From positions 1 to 53,756 of the forward strand of contig CALDYR010000050.1 of the NCBI GenBank assembly GCA_937944405.1: a stretch of 53,756 nt of DNA, read 5' to 3'. The notes beneath the pieces are model-generated. The model saw nothing but the letters and a program-made list of their open reading frames with translations, was not told the DNA's origin and ran no database searches. Source of the DNA: an uncultured Pirellulaceae bacterium. GTDB taxonomy: Bacteria > Planctomycetota > Planctomycetia > Pirellulales > Pirellulaceae. Within the stretch, counting starts at the first letter, position 1. Every line of letters starts with the position of its first letter. Below, piece by piece: positions 25,418-34,730 of this stretch. The position numbers and the translations under genes were made by a program.

Positions 25418-26638
25418 GTGCAAAACCATCCACCCCACCCTGCCCCGAAACTGCTGATAGTTGCCGAGTTTGATTCGTTGAACGGAGGCGAAAATTCCAT
25501 GCTGGCGGTGCTGCCGTTGTTGGTTGAAACTGGCTGGCGGATAAAAATAGCGTTTCCTCATCAGGCCGTTGCTGGCGATCATGAGTTGCTGGCGGATCGG
25601 ATCGTGGGGTTGGATGTGCGGGGCATCGAACTGGCGACGCACCACGAAGACGGGACCAAAAAATCCCAAGCCCAGTATCGCCAAGGGCTAGCGGAAGTCA
25701 TCGACGCACATCAACCCGACCTCGTGTGGGCCAATAGCCTTTCCATGAGTCGTTTGTGCGGACCGGTGACCGCGAAGCTTGGCGTGGCATCGGTTGGGTA
25801 TCTGCGCGACATCGTTAAACTGAGCAACAAAGCTGTTGCCGATGTCAATCAATTGGATCAAATGGTCGCGGTGTCGCAAGCGACAAAAGACTTCCACGCG
25901 GCCCAAGGGGTGATCGAATCAAAGATGCACGTGATTCATAACGGCGTCGATTTAGATTTGTTTAAACCGGTTGCTGGAAGTGGGGTGGTTAATGTGAAGA
26001 TGGAGTTAGGAATTCCCAACGACTCCCCTGCCCTGTTGTTCGTTGGGCAAATAGGGATGCGAAAAGGCGTCGACGTATTGTTGGACGTTTTTGAAAAAGT
26101 GATTTTGGATTTGCCGGATTGCCATCTTTTAATTGTCGGTCAGCGGCATTCCGCCAAACAAGAGTCGATTGACTATGAATCGGAATTGGTAATGCGGAGT
26201 CAAAGGGTTCCTTTGCAAAATAAGGTTCACTGGTTGCACCGGCGCGACGACATGCCTGAGGTTTATAACGGTGCGGACTTGCTTTTGCACCCGGCTCGGC
26301 AAGAGCCGTTGGGGCGGGTGATATTAGAATCCATCGCCTGTGGTTTGCCGGTGTTGACGACATTGGTCGGGGGTAGCCCCGAGATTTTAGGCTGCAACGA
26401 TTCCTGCGATTTGCTGTGCCCTGTGGACGATGCCTCAACCATGGCTCAGCGGGCGGTCGCGATCCTTCAAAACGTAGAATTAAGGGGGGCGATTTCCGAA
26501 GAATTGCGGGCCTTGGCGTTGCACCGCTTTGATCGGAAACGTTGCCACGCTCAAACCGAATGTTTACTTGCAAATTTAACTTGCAAATTTAAAGGGAAAG
26601 AGATTCGTCGGGAGGAATCGTGGGATGTTAACGGGTAA
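25418..26638 (+). CDS. GT4-type glycosyltransferase
   Basis: This is a 406-residue retaining glycosyltransferase of the GT-B fold (family GT4). The N-terminal domain opens with LLIVAEFDSLNGGENSMLAVLPLL, and the C-terminal donor-binding domain begins near VIHNGVDLDLFKP, continues with LLFVGQIGMRKGVDVLLDVFEKV, and holds the E-x7-E signature (E-PLGRVIL-E within HPARQEPLGRVILESIACGLPVL). It would transfer a sugar from a nucleotide donor, perhaps for a cell-surface glycan, given the UDP-xylose synthase homologue downstream. The start is GTG at 25418, 15 bases after korB. Acceptor and donor cannot be told from sequence. Confidence 0.87.
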   Translation: MQNHPPHPAPKLLIVAEFDSLNGGENSMLAVLPLLVETGWRIKIAFPHQAVAGDHELLADRIVGLDVRGIELATHHEDGTKKSQAQYRQGLAEVIDAHQPDLVWANSLSMSRLCGPVTAKLGVASVGYLRDIVKLSNKAVADVNQLDQMVAVSQATKDFHAAQGVIESKMHVIHNGVDLDLFKPVAGSGVVNVKMELGIPNDSPALLFVGQIGMRKGVDVLLDVFEKVILDLPDCHLLIVGQRHSAKQESIDYESELVMRSQRVPLQNKVHWLHRRDDMPEVYNGADLLLHPARQEPLGRVILESIACGLPVLTTLVGGSPEILGCNDSCDLLCPVDDASTMAQRAVAILQNVELRGAISEELRALALHRFDRKRCHAQTECLLANLTCKFKGKEIRREESWDVNG

Positions 26639-26810
26639 AACGATGTTGTTTCAAGGCGCGAAAAATCCCGCCAATCGCGGAGTTGCGTTAAAGTGCTCCT
26701 AAATTCGCTGAAATGCGGCCCACACGGAACCTATTTATAGCCGCTGACAAATTCGAGAGCGCAGGCTAAGATAAGGGGTCTTACTGCAACCGGAGCGAAT
26801 TGGATTATCT

Positions 26811-27785
26811 ATGTCGATTGTTAAGCGTATTGTTGTTGCCGGTGGAGCCGGTTTTTTAGGTTCGCATCTTTGCGAGCGATTGGTCGAACAGGAACATGAT
26901 GTAATCTGTTTGGATAACTTTTACACCAGTCAGAAAACCAACGTAACTCATTTGTTGGGCAAACCAAATTTTGAATTGATCCGGCACGATGTCGTTGATC
27001 CCATTCTTTTGGAGGTGGACGAGATTTACAATCTGGCATGTCCGGCGTCTCCGGGGCACTACCAGTATAATCCGATCAAGACGATGAAGATCTCGATCTT
27101 GGGTTCGGTGAACTTATTGGGTATGGCCAAACGCTGTAACGCCAAAATTTTCCAAGCCTCCACCAGTGAAGTCTATGGTGATCCCGAAGTCCATCCGCAG
27201 CCTGAAAGCTATAAGGGTTCGGTCAATCCGATAGGTATTCGTGCTTGCTACGATGAAGGGAAGCGCGCCGCGGAGACGTTGTTTTTTGACTACCATCGTT
27301 ACAATAAAACAAACATTCGTGTGTGCCGAATTTTCAACACCTACGGACCGCGTATGCACCCCTTCGACGGGCGCGTGGTCAGTAACTTCATCCGGCAAGC
27401 GCTTGCCGGGGACGACATCACGATTTTCGGTGATGGTTCACAGACGCGCTCGTTTTGTTACCGTGACGATTTGGTGGAAGGTTTTCTGCGTTTGATGGCC
27501 GCTCCAGACGAAGTCACCGGTCCGGTGAATCTTGGCAATCCTGGTGAATACACCATCAAGGAGCTCGCCGAATTGATCATTGAAATAGTCGGCAGTAAAT
27601 CCAAATTGTCCTTTCAGCCGCTTCCGCCAGACGATCCGACTCGCCGTCAGCCCGACATTGCCTTGGCCCGCAAGCAGTTGGATTGGGAACCGCACGTCGC
27701 GTTGCGAGATGGTTTGGAAAAAACGATTGAATGGTTTAAAACGATTGATGTTGAACGTTATCGACCACCGACGCCAAATTATTGA
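26811..27785 (+). CDS. uxs: UDP-glucuronate decarboxylase (UDP-xylose synthase)
   Basis: UXS converts UDP-glucuronate to UDP-xylose with bound NAD. The 324-residue extended SDR protein has the Rossmann motif G11-G-A-G-F-L-G17, LDNFYTSQK..., the family-specific [28 protein letters not shown], and the catalytic Y147-x3-K151 in [24 protein letters not shown] and [12 protein letters not shown] are further UXS signatures. Length matches soluble bacterial UXS without a membrane anchor. GGAG lies 14 bases upstream. It probably feeds xylose into a surface polysaccharide with the adjacent glycosyltransferase, though 172 bases separate them. Confidence 0.93.
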
Positions 27786-27929
27786 TCGCGGTGGTGAAGG
27801 CTTGGGTTGGTATGAAAGTCGCACCGGGGCACACGATAGTTCCTTCAAGTTTTGGTGGTTGAATCACCGACCAAAGGGTGGGGAACTTTCCTTCAACTTG
27901 TAACTACATCATACTTGAGAGCAGCTTTC

Positions 27930-29114
27930 ATGGGATTTTTGTCCGGCGGCGTCACCGTTGTTCGTTATCGAATCACCAGCGATCCTTCGGGAGACTTCGG
28001 AGAGAGCCATATTGAATCTCTTTCGGGCAACGCGATTGGGTCGAAAACGACGAACATCTACGAAGAGCCCGATGTTGGATTTTTGGGCGGGGCTCATTTG
28101 TTGGATACCGATTTTTCGGAGGAAAAAAATATCCTTGGAGACGCGATGCACTTCGGTGTTCGGATCGACAGTTGCCAGATTCCATCACCCATCAAGCGGG
28201 CGTGGATGCATCAAGAGTTGGCCGGGATGATGAAGGACAAAGAACCCGGAAGTCGCCCCACGAAGGCTCAGAAGACCGAAGCAAAAGAAGCTGTTGAAGC
28301 GCGTTGCGCCGCCCAAGCCGACAAAGGCAACTTCAAGAAGATGGCCGAAACATCGCTGCTTTGGGATGCGAAAACCGATACCCTGATGATCAGCACCGCA
28401 AGTGAGAAGACGAGTGACTATTGCTTGGGGTTGATTGAATCGGCCTTTGGGCTTGAACTTCAAAAAGTTACATCCGGCACTTTAGCCCTTGAGTGGGCTG
28501 ATGAATCCGATCGCAACAGTGACATGTTTGCCACGACGCCGACATCGTTTCATGAACACGCCAACGGCGGCGTGGTCTGGTGGAACGGGATGACAGACAA
28601 CTACGATTTTTTAGGCAACGAATTTTTATTGTGGTTGTGGTGGAATTGGGAAACCAACTCCAACGTAATCCAGCTAAGTGATGGATCAGAAGTCTCGGGA
28701 ATGTTTGCGCGGTCACTGAGTTTGGATTGCCCTGACGGTGAACACGGGAAGGAATCTATTTCATCTGAGTCACCCGTTGCGTTGCCGGAGGCGGCGTTGG
28801 CGGTGCGGATGGGAAAACTTCCTCGTAAGGCAGGTTTGACGTTGGTGCGAAACGGCGAAAAATACGATTTCACATTGCAGGCCGAAACCTTTACCCTTGG
28901 CAGTGCTCGTATCGCGCCGGCAGATGAAAGTGCCTCTGGTTCGCGCGATGTTGTTGACCGCATCGAATCGGTGCGGCAGCTATGTGAGACCGTCGATTTG
29001 CTGTACGGTGTTTTCTGTGAAAAAAGAATCGGAAAAAATTGGACCGCAGAGTTGAAAGAGTTGTCTCAATGGCTGGCATTGGAAACCGCGCTCAAACGCC
29101 AAAGCGCTGCTTAA
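27930..29114 (+). CDS. RdgC-like protein (recombination-associated)
   Basis: This 394-residue protein looks like a divergent RdgC. In gamma-proteobacteria RdgC forms a ring around double-stranded DNA and restrains RecA. The similarity I see is spread: GFLSGGVTVVRYRIT at the start, RIDSCQIPSPIKRAW, a KAQKTEAKEAVEAR helix matching the KTEKD.LKDEV region, LLWDAKTDTLMISTASEKTSDYCLGLIESAFGL, and a C-terminal FLLWLWWNWE segment. E. coli RdgC is about 300 residues, so this one is longer. The ATG at 27930 is chosen because conserved-looking sequence begins there; the frame is open from 27852. It stands alone. Identification is by pattern memory and should be treated as probable. Confidence 0.6.
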   Translation: MGFLSGGVTVVRYRITSDPSGDFGESHIESLSGNAIGSKTTNIYEEPDVGFLGGAHLLDTDFSEEKNILGDAMHFGVRIDSCQIPSPIKRAWMHQELAGMMKDKEPGSRPTKAQKTEAKEAVEARCAAQADKGNFKKMAETSLLWDAKTDTLMISTASEKTSDYCLGLIESAFGLELQKVTSGTLALEWADESDRNSDMFATTPTSFHEHANGGVVWWNGMTDNYDFLGNEFLLWLWWNWETNSNVIQLSDGSEVSGMFARSLSLDCPDGEHGKESISSESPVALPEAALAVRMGKLPRKAGLTLVRNGEKYDFTLQAETFTLGSARIAPADESASGSRDVVDRIESVRQLCETVDLLYGVFCEKRIGKNWTAELKELSQWLALETALKRQSAA

Positions 29115-29277
29115 TAAATCCATTGGGAGGGGATTGTCGTTATAACATCCGGTAGAGTGTGGTCGATTTGGCCACACCGTGCTGCCCACTTTCAGAGGGC
29201 TAACGAAAATAACGCCTGGTAGGGTAGGTTTGCATACAGATATGCCGCAGGTCGATGGTAAAAGAAGAAGCGTTTGG

Positions 29278-29306
29278 TTGATCAAAGTCCTTCACCGATC
29301 TAAAAT
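29278..29306 (+). promoter_or_regulatory. Candidate sigma-70-type promoter of the HMA selenoprotein gene
   Basis: TTGATC (29278-29283) and TAAAAT (29301-29306) are separated by 17 bases and lie about 50 bases upstream of the ATG at 29357. The match to -35/-10 consensus is fair, so this is only a candidate. Confidence 0.35.
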
Positions 29307-29356
29307 TTCGTTGCCGGTTGTGGCCAGTAAGAAGAACCTTTCCCCTCAGAAAACAA

Positions 29357-29875
29357 ATGAATAAATTGCTAACGATGTTCGGGCTTGCGGCAGTCGCTGC
29401 GACCCTGACGCTCGGTTGCGATTCGGCCCCGTCGGTATCCGACGCGGGTGCCAACGGTACGACGTTGGCTTCGATTTCGCCCGAAAACAAAGGGACCGTC
29501 GTGTATGGGGTAACCGGAATGACGTGACCGGGCTGAGACAAAGCGGTTGAAAAACTGCTCAAAGAGCTACCGGGTGTAGCTTCCGCCGAGGCCGATATGG
29601 CGACACGAACCGCCGCTGTGATCTACGACAAATCAATCTTTGATGTCGCCTCAATTGGCGATGAAGGCCGTTACACTTTCGAAGTCCGACAGGATTCAGC
29701 GACTGCTGACGGGAAAACCGCCGATGGTTCGGACGGAAAAGGTATGGCAACCGCTGATGGAGATGAGAAAGACAAACCTTCGATGATTAAGATCGAGGAC
29801 GCGGCGATCGAAAGTGGTTCTGGAAAAAAGCAGGAATCCAACATCGTGCCATCCTTGGATGGGCCGGCCAGTTAG
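29357..29875 (+). CDS. HMA-domain (MerP/CopZ-like) exported protein with UxxU: predicted double selenocysteine selenoprotein
   Basis: Read with both in-frame TGA codons as selenocysteine, the product has 172 residues. A signal sequence ends at TLTLGC (possible but non-ideal lipobox, Cys at residue 21). A heavy-metal-associated domain spans about 46-112: VVYGVTGMT-U57-P-G-U60-DKAVEKLLKELPGVASA...TRTAAVIYD. In the family this motif is GMTCxxC and both Cys bind a soft metal ion; here both are TGA (29525-29527 and 29534-29536) while the rest is a normal HMA domain. The frame is open on both sides. The tail is charged and low in complexity (Asp/Gly/Lys). Hairpins suited to act as SECIS elements follow the TGAs. 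Automatic gene calling would split it into two fragments or drop it. A pseudogene is possible, but two independent hits at exactly the two functional Cys make that unlikely. Confidence 0.82.
29542..29559 (+). promoter_or_regulatory. Candidate bacterial SECIS hairpin 1 (serves UGA at 29525)
   Basis: AGCGGTT (29542-29548) pairs with AACTGCT (29553-29559) around a GAAA tetraloop; one of seven pairs is G-T. The loop begins with G at 29549, 21 bases after the first UGA, and the stem starts 14 bases after it. The published bacterial consensus, as I recall it, needs a G among the first two loop bases 16-37 bases after UGA; this fits. It lies within the coding sequence, as bacterial SECIS elements do. 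Confidence 0.6.
29564..29582 (+). promoter_or_regulatory. Candidate bacterial SECIS hairpin 2 (serves UGA at 29534)
   Basis: GAGCTAC (29564-29570) pairs with GTAGCTT (29576-29582), including one G-T pair, around a CGGGT loop. G is the second loop base at 29572, 35 bases after the second UGA, inside the 16-37 base window. It begins four bases after hairpin 1, so the two can form together. Confidence 0.55.
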
Positions 29876-29981
29876 CGACCACCAGCGCGTGCGACGAGTG
29901 ATAGTTTCCAGCTGATCATCTTGGATGAATTGATGGAAATGTTCCATCGAAGCAATATTTTTGAAAACTGAATTTTTCCAC

Positions 29982-30022
29982 CAGCGGCATTTCGTGATTT
30001 CGAAGTGCCGCTGTTTTTTTTT
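29982..30022 (+). terminator. Intrinsic terminator of the HMA selenoprotein gene
   Basis: CAGCGGCA (29982-29989) pairs with TGCCGCTG (30006-30013) and a run of nine T follows. It closes a monocistronic transcript between the HMA gene and the oxidase gene whose ATG is at 30034. Confidence 0.9.
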
Positions 30023-30033
30023 GAGCGAGTGTT

Positions 30034-31200
30034 ATGCCTGAAAACCAAAACCAAAATCATTTTGATTGTATCGTCATTGGATTCGGTGGCGTAGGCAGCG
30101 CGGCGATGCGATATGCCGCAATGTCGGGGCGCTCTGTGCTTGGGATCGACTCCCATGGGCCGGCTCATACCCACGGAAGTTCGCACGGTCAAACGCGCGT
30201 GATCCGAAAGGCCTATTTCGAGCATCCCAACTACGTACCGATGTTGCAAGAGTCGTACGATTTGTGGGACGAACTTAACCGCCGCCACCGGACCAGACCC
30301 GAAACCAAGGAATTGTTGACCCGGTGCGGTATCTTGCAGATCGGGCCGCCGGAGGGGCAGGTCATTACCGGAGTTTTAAAGAGTGCTGAAACGCATAGTC
30401 TGTCAGTAGAACGTTTTACGCGCGAACAGATAATGCGACGGTTGCCAATTCTTAAAGTGCCAGAAAATCACGAAGGCGTTTTCGAGCCAGATGGAGGATT
30501 CTTACGGGTCGAACTCTGCATTGCCGCATTTCTTAAACAAGCGATTCATCACGGTGCTGAATTACTTTCTAACACGACGGTCAGTCAAATAAGCTCTGAC
30601 GATAACGCTCTGATGAACGTTCATACGTCTGCTGGTGAATTTACAGCTGACCAGATTATTGTCAGCGCCGGGGCCTGGGCGAATCAAGTGCTACCTGATT
30701 TAGAACTGCCACTGACGGTGTTGGCGAAGCAGCAGCACTGGTATCAAATCGATCGGGTTGACAATAAATTAGTCAACGAATTCCCTTGCACTTTCTTTGA
30801 ACGCGCCGATGGTAGCAGTTTCTACGTTACGCCGGAGTTGGATACGATAGGCATGAAAGTTTGCGAGCATTCTGGCGGGGACGAGGTACATGACCTGGAG
30901 CAGTTTTCCAACGAACTCAACGACGGTCAGAAAGAACGTATCGACCAGTTTCTGGCTGAGAGTTTTCTGTTCACCAAATCGCGTTTGGTTCATCATAGTA
31001 TGTGCAAGTACACGATGACGCCCGATTCCCACTTCATCGTTGATCGTCATCCGGTTTACCAGCAGGTTGTTTTTGCTGCGGGATTTTCGGGGCATGGTTT
31101 CAAGTTTGCTCCGGTAATTGGAAAGCGTTTGGTGGGGATGTTGGACGGCGAGCAAGACGATCGGTTCGATTTTTTAACGCTTCGTCGATTTGATGATTAA
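30034..31200 (+). CDS. SolA-type FAD-dependent N-methyl amino acid / sarcosine oxidase
   Basis: This 388-residue flavoprotein belongs to the monomeric sarcosine oxidase / N-methyltryptophan oxidase family, which oxidises N-methyl amines to formaldehyde, amine and H2O2. The FAD-binding motif (VIGFGGVGSAAMRYAA) starts near residue 13, and GIDSHGPAHTHGSSHGQTRVIRKAY is family-typical. FEPDGGFLRVELC and ISAGAW-like VSAGAWANQVLP follow. C324 in SMCKYTMTPDSHFIVD aligns with the Cys that holds FAD covalently. Near the end AAGFSGHGFKFAPVIGK is the second FAD-contact motif. The ATG at 30034 follows GAGCG. It starts just after the terminator of the HMA gene and so is transcribed separately. Substrate is not resolved. 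Confidence 0.88.
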   Translation: MPENQNQNHFDCIVIGFGGVGSAAMRYAAMSGRSVLGIDSHGPAHTHGSSHGQTRVIRKAYFEHPNYVPMLQESYDLWDELNRRHRTRPETKELLTRCGILQIGPPEGQVITGVLKSAETHSLSVERFTREQIMRRLPILKVPENHEGVFEPDGGFLRVELCIAAFLKQAIHHGAELLSNTTVSQISSDDNALMNVHTSAGEFTADQIIVSAGAWANQVLPDLELPLTVLAKQQHWYQIDRVDNKLVNEFPCTFFERADGSSFYVTPELDTIGMKVCEHSGGDEVHDLEQFSNELNDGQKERIDQFLAESFLFTKSRLVHHSMCKYTMTPDSHFIVDRHPVYQQVVFAAGFSGHGFKFAPVIGKRLVGMLDGEQDDRFDFLTLRRFDD

Positions 31201-31300
31201 GTTGGATCGTTGCATCAAAAGACGGTATGTCGATGGAGGTGCTGGGGGCGTTTCGAACTCCAATGTCGATTTGCCGGATCGCTGGCCTTTGACTGGAGGG

Positions 31301-31366
31301 GGTTCTTCCCGGATTTTAGTGGCAGGCTTTTAGCGCATTGCCCGCCAAAAAGTTCCCGGAAGAACC
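31301..31366. mobile_element. 66-bp near-palindromic MITE-like element with ISL3-type ends
   Basis: The left arm 31301-31327 (GGTTCTTCCCGGATTTTAGT...) and right arm 31340-31366 (...AGTTCCCGGAAGAACC) are imperfect inverted repeats of 27 bases with a 12-base centre. The arm sequence matches, inverted, the end next to the ISL3 transposase relic at 13154-13178. This suggests a minimal non-autonomous derivative of that element, or a head-to-head fusion of two ends. Confidence 0.6.
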
Positions 31367-31446
31367 TCAGAGAAAATCCAAGTCCTGTTTGCCACGTTGG
31401 TTTGTGAAAAATTTGATAGTTATCCTCTGCCTTGATGGCAGAGGCA

Positions 31447-33099
31447 CTATTTTGCCATTGCCGCAATAGGCCTCGTTCGTCCGTCTGCGATGATTTTTTT
31501 CAACTGTTGCTTCAAGCGTTCGGCGACTTCGGGGTGATCGGCAATCACATCGACTTGCTCGGCCGGGTCCTCTTTCACGTTGAACAGTTGATATTCAGGT
31601 TTTTTGACATTGGCCAGTTTATGTTCGACGGTAACGTTTCGCGCCCGTCTGCGGCCGTAGTTATGCAGCTTCCAATCGCCTACTCGAAGCCCGAACGTTT
31701 TGGTGTTGCCGTTGTCCTGTTGCACAATGTGATCCCTGCCGATTGCAGTCGGTTCGCCTGTCAAAGCGTCAAACATGTTGAGGCTGTCGACGCAAGCACC
31801 GTCGTCTAAGTGTTGTTGGGTCATCGCGGCCAAGCTGGCGGGGAAATCAATGGTGCAGACAATCTTGTCGCTGACCGTTGGTTTGATCTTTCCGATCCAA
31901 CGCGTTATCAGCGGTGTGCGGGTGCCGCCCTCGTAGACGCTGTATTTGCCACCGGTGAATGGGCCACCGGCGCGATGATCCCCCAATTGTTCGAGGGCAC
32001 CATCTTTGTATCCGTCGTCCATCACCGGGCCATTGTCTGAACAGAAAATGACCAATGTCTTTTCGGCCAACTTTAAACGGTCCAGCGTCTTCATCAGTTC
32101 GCCTACGCACCAATCCATTTGAACGATGCTGTCACCGCGGAAGCCCAACGACGTGGCGCCCTGGAATCGTTCGTGAGGAATACGTGGCACGTGAATGTCG
32201 TGCCCCGAGAAGAATAAAAAGAACGGTTTGCCGACGTTTTGTTCTAAGAACGCGTTCGATTTTTCGACCCATTTATCAGCCAGGTCTTCGTCGCGAAATC
32301 GAGCCTTATGTCCGCCGGTGTAATACCCGATACGGCTGATGCCGTTGTGGATCGTCATGTTGTGCCCGCGCGACCAGTCCATCTTTAGGGTCTCCCGGTG
32401 GGTCACGCCATCAGGATGATCCTCCGAAGGCTTTTCCATGCCGACCCATAAAGGATCGGCGGGGTCAAGGTTCAATACGTGATGGTCTTCCACGTAAACT
32501 TGGGGGACGCGGTCGTTGGTGGTGGGCAGCAAGAAACATGAATCAAAACCGATTTCCAGCGGACCGGGGTTGAGTTCTCCGTTCCAGTCGGGCCCGCCTT
32601 CTCCGCCCAAACCAAGATGCCATTTGCCGATGACGGCCGTTTGATAGCCCGCGCGGTTGAGAATCGACGCCATCGTTTCGGTGCCCGGTTTGATCACAGC
32701 CGGTGAATTCGGTGGCGCGATGCCAGTACCTTTGGTGCGAAAGGCATAGTTCCCCGTCAGCATGGAATAGCGCGTCGGCGTGCAGGTCGATGCCGAACAA
32801 TAACCGCTGGTGAAACGGATGCCTTGAGAGGCTAGTTTGTCGATGTTGGGTGTTTGCAGCGACGTGGCACCGTAGCACGACAGGTCGCCATACCCCAAGT
32901 CGTCGGCCATGATCACAATCACGTTGGGGGGATCGGCGTTAGGGGAAGACGCAGAGGAGTCTGCCCCGTAAGTTGTAGACATCAGTAGGCCCAGCAATTG
33001 GGCCATCGCAAAGAAAGTGACGGTCGAGAGATTAACGGTCGCGTGGGAAACGGTCGCGTGGGAAACGGTCGAAAAAGTTTTTGCTTGCGCTACTGACAT
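31447..33099 (-). CDS. Secreted arylsulfatase-type sulfatase 2
   Basis: This 550-residue sulfatase removes sulfate esters outside the cytoplasm after its Cys is converted to formylglycine. Metal-site D66-D67 (IMADDLGYGDLSCYG) and the modification motif C106-T-P-T-R110 are intact; GKWHLGLGG, HDIHVPRIPHERF and FCSDNGPV are further active-site blocks. A hydrophobic signal (FFAMAQLLGLLMSTTYGA) lies at about 29-46, preceded by a repeat-encoded polar stretch (TVSHATVSHATV). The ATG at 33099 is chosen because GGAG lies nine bases upstream; an earlier ATG at 33120 would add seven residues. It is divergent from sthA. It differs clearly from sulfatase 1 (CTPTR against CAPSR, no Ca-binding tail), so the two probably act on different substrates. 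Confidence 0.93.
   Translation of the reverse strand: MSVAQAKTFSTVSHATVSHATVNLSTVTFFAMAQLLGLLMSTTYGADSSASSPNADPPNVIVIMADDLGYGDLSCYGATSLQTPNIDKLASQGIRFTSGYCSASTCTPTRYSMLTGNYAFRTKGTGIAPPNSPAVIKPGTETMASILNRAGYQTAVIGKWHLGLGGEGGPDWNGELNPGPLEIGFDSCFLLPTTNDRVPQVYVEDHHVLNLDPADPLWVGMEKPSEDHPDGVTHRETLKMDWSRGHNMTIHNGISRIGYYTGGHKARFRDEDLADKWVEKSNAFLEQNVGKPFFLFFSGHDIHVPRIPHERFQGATSLGFRGDSIVQMDWCVGELMKTLDRLKLAEKTLVIFCSDNGPVMDDGYKDGALEQLGDHRAGGPFTGGKYSVYEGGTRTPLITRWIGKIKPTVSDKIVCTIDFPASLAAMTQQHLDDGACVDSLNMFDALTGEPTAIGRDHIVQQDNGNTKTFGLRVGDWKLHNYGRRRARNVTVEHKLANVKKPEYQLFNVKEDPAEQVDVIADHPEVAERLKQQLKKIIADGRTRPIAAMAK
33034..33070. repeat. 15-bp tandem repeat in the 5' end of sulfatase 2
   Basis: AACGGTCGCGTGGGA is repeated twice plus a partial third unit. 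The 15-base period keeps the frame and encodes the repeated VSHAT in the N-terminal region ahead of the signal peptide. Confidence 0.7.
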
Positions 33100-33347
33100 A
33101 AAAAAGCACTCCGGTGACATGATTTATTCGTAGATCGTTTCGAAGCGGCGGGTCAACCGCTTCGAAGCGAAGAATCGAGTATACACAAGTCGCGTTGGGA
33201 GTGGATGGTTGGTTGAGGAATGACCGTTGGCATTAACGAAATATCTTTGACGGAGGCATAGAGGGCGTCGCCGAGATTGCGAAAAAGCGCTATTGCCGTT
33301 AAAAATGACGTCATTAGAAACATGAACTTACAACGAAGCACGAAACG

Positions 33348-34730
33348 ATGGATCAAAAAGTAGACGTAGTTGTTATCGGTACCGGCCCCGGAGGTGAAGG
33401 CGCCGCGATGCAGCTGGCTAAGGCGGGGAAGAAAGTCATCGTCGTCGAACGTTATGCAAGGATAGGCGGAGGGTGTACACACTGGGGAACCATCCCCTCT
33501 AAAGCGTTAAGATTTGCGATTTCTCAATTGACCGAAGCCCTTACCAATCCGATTCTGATTGAAAGCGGTTTAAAGGCCAAACCAACCATCGCGCAGTTAA
33601 CCGGGACGGCGCAAAAGGTAATCTCACAACAGGAGTCCATGCGGCGGACGTTCTACTCTCGCAACAACGTCGAAGTTGTCGGCGGCCATGCACGGTTTGT
33701 TGATGCGAATACGATTTCGATTGACAATGGTAAAACAATTTCGACCGATCATGTTGTCGTCGCGGTGGGGTCGCGACCGTACCGTCCGCCGAATGTCGAT
33801 TTTGATCACGAACGTATCTTTGACAGCGACACCATTTTAGGGCTGGAGCACAAACCGAAAACCTTGACTATTTTTGGTGCGGGGGTCATTGGTTGTGAGT
33901 ACGCGTCGATGTTCAGAAACCTGTCGATTAAAATTAACTTAATCAATGGGCGCGGGGAATTATTAGATTTTTTGGACAATGAAATCAGCGATGCACTTTC
34001 GTACCACATGCGCGAACGCGGCGTTGTGATTCGCCACAACGAAAGTATGGAACGTATCGAAGCGGTCGACGATGGCGTGATCACCCATCTTAAAAGCGGG
34101 AAGATGCTGAAGTCCGATGCGTTTCTCTGGGCCGCAGGAAGAACGGGCAATACGGCTGACTTGGGTGTCGACACCGTCGGGCTGGAACCCGATAAACGTG
34201 GATACTTGGAGGTCAACGCGTGCTATCAGACAAAAATCGAAAACATTTTCGCCGTTGGCGATGTCGTTGGATTCCCGTCTCTGGCCAGCGCCGCTTACAC
34301 CCAAGGACGTGCCGCGGGGAAACGGATTTTAGGCGAACCTGAAGAACAATGTCTGTTGGGGAGTGAAATTCCTGCCGGCATCTACACGACGCCTGAAATT
34401 TCGTGCATCGGAAAAACGGAAGAGCAGTTGACTGAGGAAAAAATTCCTTATGAAGTCGGGATCTCCAATTTCAAACATCTTGCTCGGGCTCAGATTCTCC
34501 GCCAAGACGTCGGGATGTTGAAGATTCTGTTTCATCGAGAAACACTTGAAGTGTTAGGAGTGCATTGTTTCGGCGCTAACGCATCAGAAATTATCCATAT
34601 TGGACAAGCCGTTATGTCCAATCCGGCGATCAATTCACTGGAGTACTTCATTCAAACGACCTTTAATTATCCGACAATGGCCGAAGCCTATCGCGTGGCA
34701 GCGCTCAATGGATACAACCGATTGTTTTAA
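33348..34730 (+). CDS. sthA: Si-specific NAD(P)+ transhydrogenase
   Basis: SthA is a soluble FAD enzyme that moves hydride between NADPH and NAD+. The 460-residue product has the FAD motif [19 protein letters not shown] and the diagnostic GGGC43-T-H-W-G-T48-IPSKALR; dihydrolipoamide dehydrogenases have a second Cys where Thr48 stands, so absence of that Cys marks the transhydrogenase branch. The NAD domain shows [14 protein letters not shown], the second FAD motif is [22 protein letters not shown], and the dimer domain ends in [19 protein letters not shown]. The ATG is at 33348. It is divergent from sulfatase 2. Cytoplasmic redox balance. Confidence 0.93.

Follow-up and report, generated by a model that had tools for sequence, protein, structure and literature searches.

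A predicted double-selenocysteine HMA lipoprotein of the Pirellulaceae and the hairpins downstream of its UGA codons

A gene for a small heavy-metal-associated (HMA) lipoprotein in the contig of an uncultured Pirellulaceae bacterium (the window; 53,756 nucleotides) carries in-frame TGA codons at both metal-ligand positions of its HMA motif, and the reading of this frame with selenocysteine (Sec), not as decay, is confirmed at the level of sequence comparison. Comparison with its relatives lends good support to the coding of Sec, to where the Sec residues stand, to the HMA fold and to a covarying hairpin linked to Sec. As a whole, we consider it very likely that this is a Sec gene with one in-frame SECIS, and that its product would be an exported, lipidated HMA protein binding soft metal through selenolates. 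The initial annotation had described a single frame from ATG to TAG broken only by two TGAs, and this is exactly what is found: the only internal stops stand at residues 57 and 60, in the context GVTGMT-U-PG-U-DKAVEKLLKELPGV (Table 1).

Table 1. Positions of the gene, its protein features and the RNA hairpins in the window
Feature	Position	Strand	Basis
CDS, double-selenocysteine HMA lipoprotein, 172 aa, TAG stop (29873-29875)	29357..29875	+	start Met common to two closest orthologues
Signal peptide with lipobox LTLG-C; Cys21 is the predicted lipidated N-terminus	29357..29419	+	sequence
HMA (heavy-metal-associated) domain, residues 52-94	29510..29638	+	Pfam PF00403, AF2, Foldseek
UGA read as Sec57, first metal ligand	29525..29527	+	frame and TGA placement among relatives
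UGA read as Sec60, second metal ligand	29534..29536	+	frame and TGA placement among relatives
Near hairpin with loop GAAA and 7 bp; possible spacer stem separating UGAs from SECIS	29542..29559	+	hairpins here stronger in Sec than Cys copies
Far hairpin with 6-bp stem and loop CGGGU, 34 nt after second UGA; candidate apical stem-loop of the SECIS	29565..29581	+	covariation, loop rule, held-out copy

TGA placement among relatives and the selenocysteine machinery

With its stops read through, the protein has matches in 94 of the 296 genomes searched for the order. A profile built from eight Sec copies recovered matches in 27 of the 28 genomes of the genus and, at an E-value of 1e-8, in 210 of 397 genomes of the class; many of the class-level matches lie inside long open frames and are thus HMA domains of larger proteins. 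The window's own genome encodes one such Cys HMA domain within a frame of about 418 codons (L114, G000:C16:12421-12603), and many genomes of the genus likewise have matches of this kind in frames of 405-421 codons. Within the genus, a TGA-bearing match is listed for 23 of 28 genomes and a match with two TGAs for 19. For a finer comparison of the ligand positions we drew on loci L001-L136 together with the window, which gave 136 domain matches, 127 of them at an E-value of 1e-3 or better. Leaving out six matches that lacked the motif pattern (five TGA copies and one truncated Cys copy) and removing duplicates produced a filtered set of 109 copies; it is not a census, as TGA-bearing loci were deliberately fetched. 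It comprises 57 TGA copies from 49 genomes, with the forms U-x-x-x-U (27), U-x-x-C (13), U-x-x-x-C (12) and U-x-x-U (5), and 52 Cys-only copies from 46 genomes, with C-x-x-C (40) and C-x-x-x-C (12).

The domain cores of these 109 filtered, non-redundant copies contain 6840 codons; 89 of these are in-frame TGAs, and every one of the 89 is a ligand codon. Over the whole aligned stretches there are 91 TGAs, of which 83 are ligand codons, six more are the ligand codons of L102, L112 and L126, and two lie upstream of the domain, in the reads of the Cys copies L107 and L028. Homologues with C-x-x-C, U-x-x-C and U-x-x-U, which the initial annotation had named as the forms that would support its reading, all occur in the same place. 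It had also named TGAs at unrelated positions as a sign of decay: the 109 domain cores contain none, and an odd U-x7-U spacing is seen in one of the copies that failed the filter. These failed TGA copies are a U-x-x-x-U (L124), two U-x-x-U with altered motifs (L119 and L132), a U-x-x-C (L077) and the U-x7-U (L119). At L119 (minus strand, G305:C34) the two TGA-bearing HMA-like copies, one with UMAU (a UxxU with altered motif) and the other with U-x7-U, adjoin each other, and neither has a far hairpin.

The five filtered U-x-x-U copies, namely those of the window and of the genus genomes G310, G313, G314 and G318, all keep GMT-U-PG-U. In a tree of 101 rows and 74 columns they group together as a starred clade, next to 11 U-x-x-x-U copies from the genus; the tree has many weak forks, was built with the ligand residues masked and displays L102, L112 and L126 as C-C although they are U-x-x-x-U. 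Two contigs of uncultured Pirellulaceae MAGs (L137 and L138) encode proteins that agree with two of the five U-x-x-U genomes, and there the gene has the same neighbours as in the window, as judged by ORF translations. Since both TGAs are kept in independent assemblies, a single sequencing error is ruled out. When the gene is split at the TGAs, dN/dS is 0.15-0.25 before and 0.11-0.30 after them (dS approaches saturation in the pairs with the window; it is moderate in the pair L066 and L067, which gives 0.30 after the TGAs); the stretch behind both TGAs is therefore under protein-level constraint. A pseudogene or sequencing error, in which the two TGAs would be damage to a normal C-x-x-C HMA gene, is rejected as exceedingly improbable on several grounds: 1) five genomes of the genus keep the TGAs, with synteny and with purifying selection downstream of them; 2) 89 of 89 core TGAs are placed at ligand positions; and 3) a covarying hairpin goes with Sec.

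The source assembly of the window (3.95 Mb in 161 contigs, 93% complete) contains the whole set of genes whose presence the initial annotation had proposed as a check: 1) selC, a tRNA-Sec scoring 66 bits (gathering score 47) and called by ARAGORN as tRNA-SeC with anticodon tca; 2) SelB, at 343.5 bits against a cut-off of 242.25; 3) SelA, at 579.8 against 267.9; and 4) SelD, at 254.4 against 125. A genome-wide reassignment of TGA was considered and rejected, because TGA serves as the ordinary stop of the neighbouring CDS at 26811-27785. Across 80 of 83 genomes that had been picked by hand from among the matches listed, SelA exceeds its cut-off in 43 of 50 genomes with a Sec-HMA copy versus 6 of 30 in which only Cys copies had turned up (Fisher p 6e-9); a SelA-like match under the cut-off occurs in six more of these 30, and the seven Sec-HMA genomes in which SelA was not found are all incomplete (62-92%). 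The proposal of a UxxU double-selenocysteine protein is thus borne out by TGA placement, machinery, homologue forms and independent assemblies, with the amendment that the commonest double form in the family is not U-x-x-U, as in the window, but U-x-x-x-U.

Hairpins downstream of the UGA codons

Two hairpins follow the UGAs of the window. In the far one, positions 29565-29570 pair with 29576-29581, and the stem is built by the Leu-CTA and Val-GTA codons of the LPGV region, both rare in seven CDSs of the window (CTA is 3.3% of Leu codons and GTA 9.5% of Val codons). An initial tally found GTA as the Val codon of 40 of 47 Sec copies versus 2 of 36 Cys copies; the five informative pairs of the far hairpin were complete in 42 of 47 and 1 of 36, respectively. 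Over 45 distinct Sec rows, five of them from copies without the hairpin, 92.6% of the cells are paired versus 70.1% (sd 1.8) after shuffling, and covariation stands at 0.542 versus 0.169; slid registers of the Sec rows reach at most 53.3% paired with covariation of 0.155. The 38 Cys rows hold no far-hairpin signal (45.2% paired versus 47.0% shuffled; covariation 0.063). Since the far hairpin was first seen in the very sequences used here, and many of the rows are related, the Cys controls and the held-out copies described below matter most. Copies with LPWV, where Trp replaces Gly, still keep the far stem (CUUACCGUGGGUAAG). In a synonymous-recoding test, with codon weights taken from the pooled copies including the Sec ones, the near hairpin beats the recoded sequences (p < 0.05) in 26 of 45 Sec versus 0 of 38 Cys copies and the far hairpin does so in 30 of 45 versus 1 of 38. 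The overall stability of the window RNA is unremarkable against shuffled sequences (z -0.71 and -0.91); centroid folds hold both hairpins, and minimum-energy folds add or substitute other pairs. An Rfam scan of 29300-29900 returned five matches at E-values up to 10, none near the gathering score, and the Rfam SECIS_1 model found nothing in the window's own genome and equally nothing in control genomes, hence it is uninformative here.

The family displays two hairpin architectures. The far hairpin forms all six pairs in 45 of the 57 Sec copies, with a loop of the form C-G-[G/U]-G-N in every one of them. The remaining 12 are single-Sec throughout and fold a hairpin closer to the UGA; in 12 of 12 its first loop bases are G[G/U] or NG[G/U], a rule that the near loops of the far-type copies fit in just 6 of 45. 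All 32 double-Sec copies of the filtered set (31 genomes) are of the far type; among the copies dropped by the filter, the two double-Sec U-x-x-U copies (L119 and L132) and the U-x7-U copy of L119 lack the far hairpin, and L124 pairs at five of six positions. Two U-x-x-C loci of the genus (L115 and L116; G285:C3 and C10) belong to a separate HMA class with NMTUGGC or GMTUGGC and a near-type hairpin, and at L115 a 198-aa ORF ends about at its TGA.

Held-out copies came from a search of the phylum, in which 10 of 392 genomes, the window's own included, gave a match at 1e-16; this added seven Sec copies at nine new loci. Only one of these copies (L225, from outside the class) is double-Sec, and it forms the far hairpin with six of six pairs and the loop CGUGG. 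None of the six single-Sec copies completes the far hairpin; the best near hairpin has a G[G/U] loop in six of six, two of these hairpins being weak. At L229 (G779:C29) two single-Sec copies have the near-hairpin loop GGUCU between GUGC and GCAC, which we take to resemble the E. coli fdhF SECIS loop. When a model of the far hairpin was run on the window's own genome (150 of 752 candidates scored), the window gene, itself in the training set, scored 28.7 bits, and an HMA Sec gene on C135, outside the training set, scored 28.0; for the next three matches (20.3, 18.8 and 14.5 bits) no suitably spaced TGA was seen in an open frame. The gene on C135 (L113:5022-5276; G000:C135:13521-13775) is a second Sec-HMA lipoprotein gene of the same genome, with GMT-U-KTG-C, one TGA and the far-hairpin loop CGGGG.

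As outlined in PMC13188914, a bacterial SECIS has a G in the apical loop, often followed by G or U, and in most elements the loop lies 16-37 nt from the UGA. The window family resembles this consensus in having a stem-loop downstream of the UGA, with G[G/U] early in the apical loop, and differs from it in distance and in the second hairpin that stands between. In all far-type copies but one the far loop starts 34 nt from the second ligand codon, so that the first UGA is 43 nt away in U-x-x-U and 46 nt away in U-x-x-x-U copies, and the UGA of the 13 single-Sec far-type copies 43-49 nt away; in the window the second UGA (34 nt) thus falls inside the 16-37 nt range and the first (43 nt) outside it. 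These distances speak for an alternative in which the near hairpin recruits SelB, as it might in the 12 single-Sec copies without the far one, and the far hairpin has some other role. The loop rule lowers the standing of the near hairpin as the main SECIS of far-type copies, since its G[G/U] start is kept in so few of their near loops and the far loops fit CG[G/U]GN throughout, and we regard this alternative as distinctly unlikely. On the preferred reading, SelB with Sec-tRNA(Sec) would decode both UGAs, directed at both by one in-frame SECIS, the far hairpin downstream of the second UGA, and the near hairpin of far-type copies would be a spacer stem that probably shortens the path from UGA to SECIS.

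Protein layout, known relatives and function

The label 'lipoprotein-like' given in the initial annotation holds, because residues 17-21 (LTLGC), spotted by eye in the window protein, form a lipobox. G20 and C21 are invariant across two alignments (A1 and A2), and a loose lipobox-like pattern is matched by 47 of 57 Sec and 22 of 52 Cys copies. We infer that the protein is processed as a lipoprotein and lipidated at Cys21. Placement of the TGAs at both HMA metal-ligand positions, likewise claimed at the outset, is upheld by the Pfam HMA model PF00403, which matches the window protein with an E-value of 1.7e-12 and 47.9 bits (cut-off 24.8) when Cys is put in place of Sec. An AF2 model from a 14-row alignment has a mean pLDDT of 67.4, with blocks at 85-94 over residues 41-110, and the tail C-terminal to the HMA domain is hydrophilic and of low confidence. 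By Foldseek, the window domain resembles HMA domains of copper ATPases as well as MerP, with E 5e-4, TMt 0.84 and rmsd 1.5 to 1osd. In a search of the PDB with a profile of eight family members, 55 distinct sequences were matched at E 0.001, copper-ATPase domains on top, and MerP was among them as 1osd (2.4e-15) and 1afi.

Proteins of this general kind have been recorded before. The closest is the NCBIfam family NF041115 (UxxU_metal_bind), a small domain for metal binding in which Sec occupies the two CxxC positions; it aligns to residues 47-92 of the window protein, albeit at 34.8 bits against a curated cut-off of 95. Judged against the model itself and not its members, the window family adds to it a lipobox, an N-terminal linker and, in the window protein, the C-terminal tail, and its double-Sec form is mostly U-x-x-x-U. 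MerP is an exported, periplasmic mercury-binding protein. The window protein is akin to it (TIGR02052) as a single exported HMA domain, although it scores 32.9 bits against a cut-off of 92.55 and is a predicted lipoprotein with Sec ligands. NF045683, a MerT/CopZ fusion-like heavy metal transport selenoprotein, also links Sec to an HMA-type domain in a metal-handling protein; unlike the stand-alone lipoprotein of the window (23.5 versus 375 bits), that model is a fusion of 235 positions. In the literature, NF041115 is listed in PMC13188914 as a metal-binding protein or putative mercuric reductase with UxxU and two Sec, and an entry of PMC9312934 names a UxxU putative mercuric reductase. The GOS survey predicted Sec in MerP and mercuric-transport proteins, with two MerP sequences in a table that gives no motif (PMC2398784). 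Given these two NCBIfam models, two reviews and the survey entries, double-Sec HMA-type proteins are a known kind, and the gene is less new than the initial annotation supposed when it knew of no characterised UxxU HMA lipoprotein-like protein. What is apparently new is the lipoprotein family, the U-x-x-x-U spacing and the displaced SECIS: none of the three is mentioned among the literature matches listed. A planctomycete HMA selenoprotein is likewise unnamed in the titles and abstract openings of those matches, and an earlier report is possible.

The window gene stands alone. Its six neighbours (25418-34727) match, by Pfam, a glycosyltransferase, an epimerase, nothing, a DAO oxidoreductase, a sulfatase and a disulphide oxidoreductase, with no heavy-metal family among them; the last is a Si-specific transhydrogenase (683.7 bits against a cut-off of 465), and its candidacy as MerA (mercuric reductase) was rejected at 269.2 bits against 454.45. 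Neither are there heavy-metal families by Pfam among ten flanking ORFs of six related loci, four of these ORFs matching nothing; altogether 5 of these 16 neighbours have no Pfam match at 1e-5. No mer genes, and thus no mer operon, were found among the neighbours tested. In consequence, a role in metal binding rests on the fold, the ligand position and export.

The main rival on function accepts the Sec protein and makes it redox-active: the U-x-x-U pair would cycle between diselenide and diselenol, in a periplasmic thiol-disulfide reductase or a sacrificial antioxidant. The absence of heavy-metal families among the neighbours tested is in keeping with this, as is the spacing, in that C-x-x-C is usual at HMA metal sites and many relatives have U-x-x-x-U instead. 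Furthermore, UxxU pairs are described for Prx-like selenoproteins in PMC13188914 and PMC2398784. We hold a redox function to be unlikely nonetheless: Pfam, NCBIfam and Foldseek all identify the domain as HMA, the Pfam Redoxin match stays below its cut-off (17.4 versus 26.6 bits), and the GM-x-ligand motif and LPGV stretch are kept in most aligned Sec copies. Hence the window protein is most likely a MerP-like exported HMA lipoprotein that would bind a soft metal via two selenolates. Once exported, lipidated at Cys21 and anchored to the membrane, it would display an HMA domain of the MerP/CopZ type, in which the selenolates of U-x-x-U supply both metal ligands. The ion bound in the periplasm would most likely be a soft, thiophilic one, Hg(II), Cu(I) or Ag(I), and the protein might act as a scavenger or hand it over to a partner.

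Extended to the family, this reading gives a group of envelope metallochaperones of the Planctomycetota with a two-selenolate site, in the form U-x-x-U or the commoner U-x-x-x-U, and a two-hairpin SECIS in which a spacer hairpin next to the UGAs would bring a distant SelB hairpin (CG[G/U]GN) nearer, so that a single SECIS could serve two UGAs 9-12 nt apart; we see the chances of this wider proposal as evenly balanced. Genes of this type would be missed by annotation that halts at TGA. Most known selenoproteins are regarded, as stated in PMC9312934, as redox proteins. A two-selenolate metal site lying outside the cytoplasm and found in many planctomycete genomes would offer material on what selenium adds to metal binding. 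The combination, within one family, of single-Sec copies with a near or a far hairpin and double-Sec copies that nearly always have the far one amounts to a natural experiment on the decoding of two UGAs with one SECIS, and the same contrast bears on the stated 16-37 nt spacing rule.
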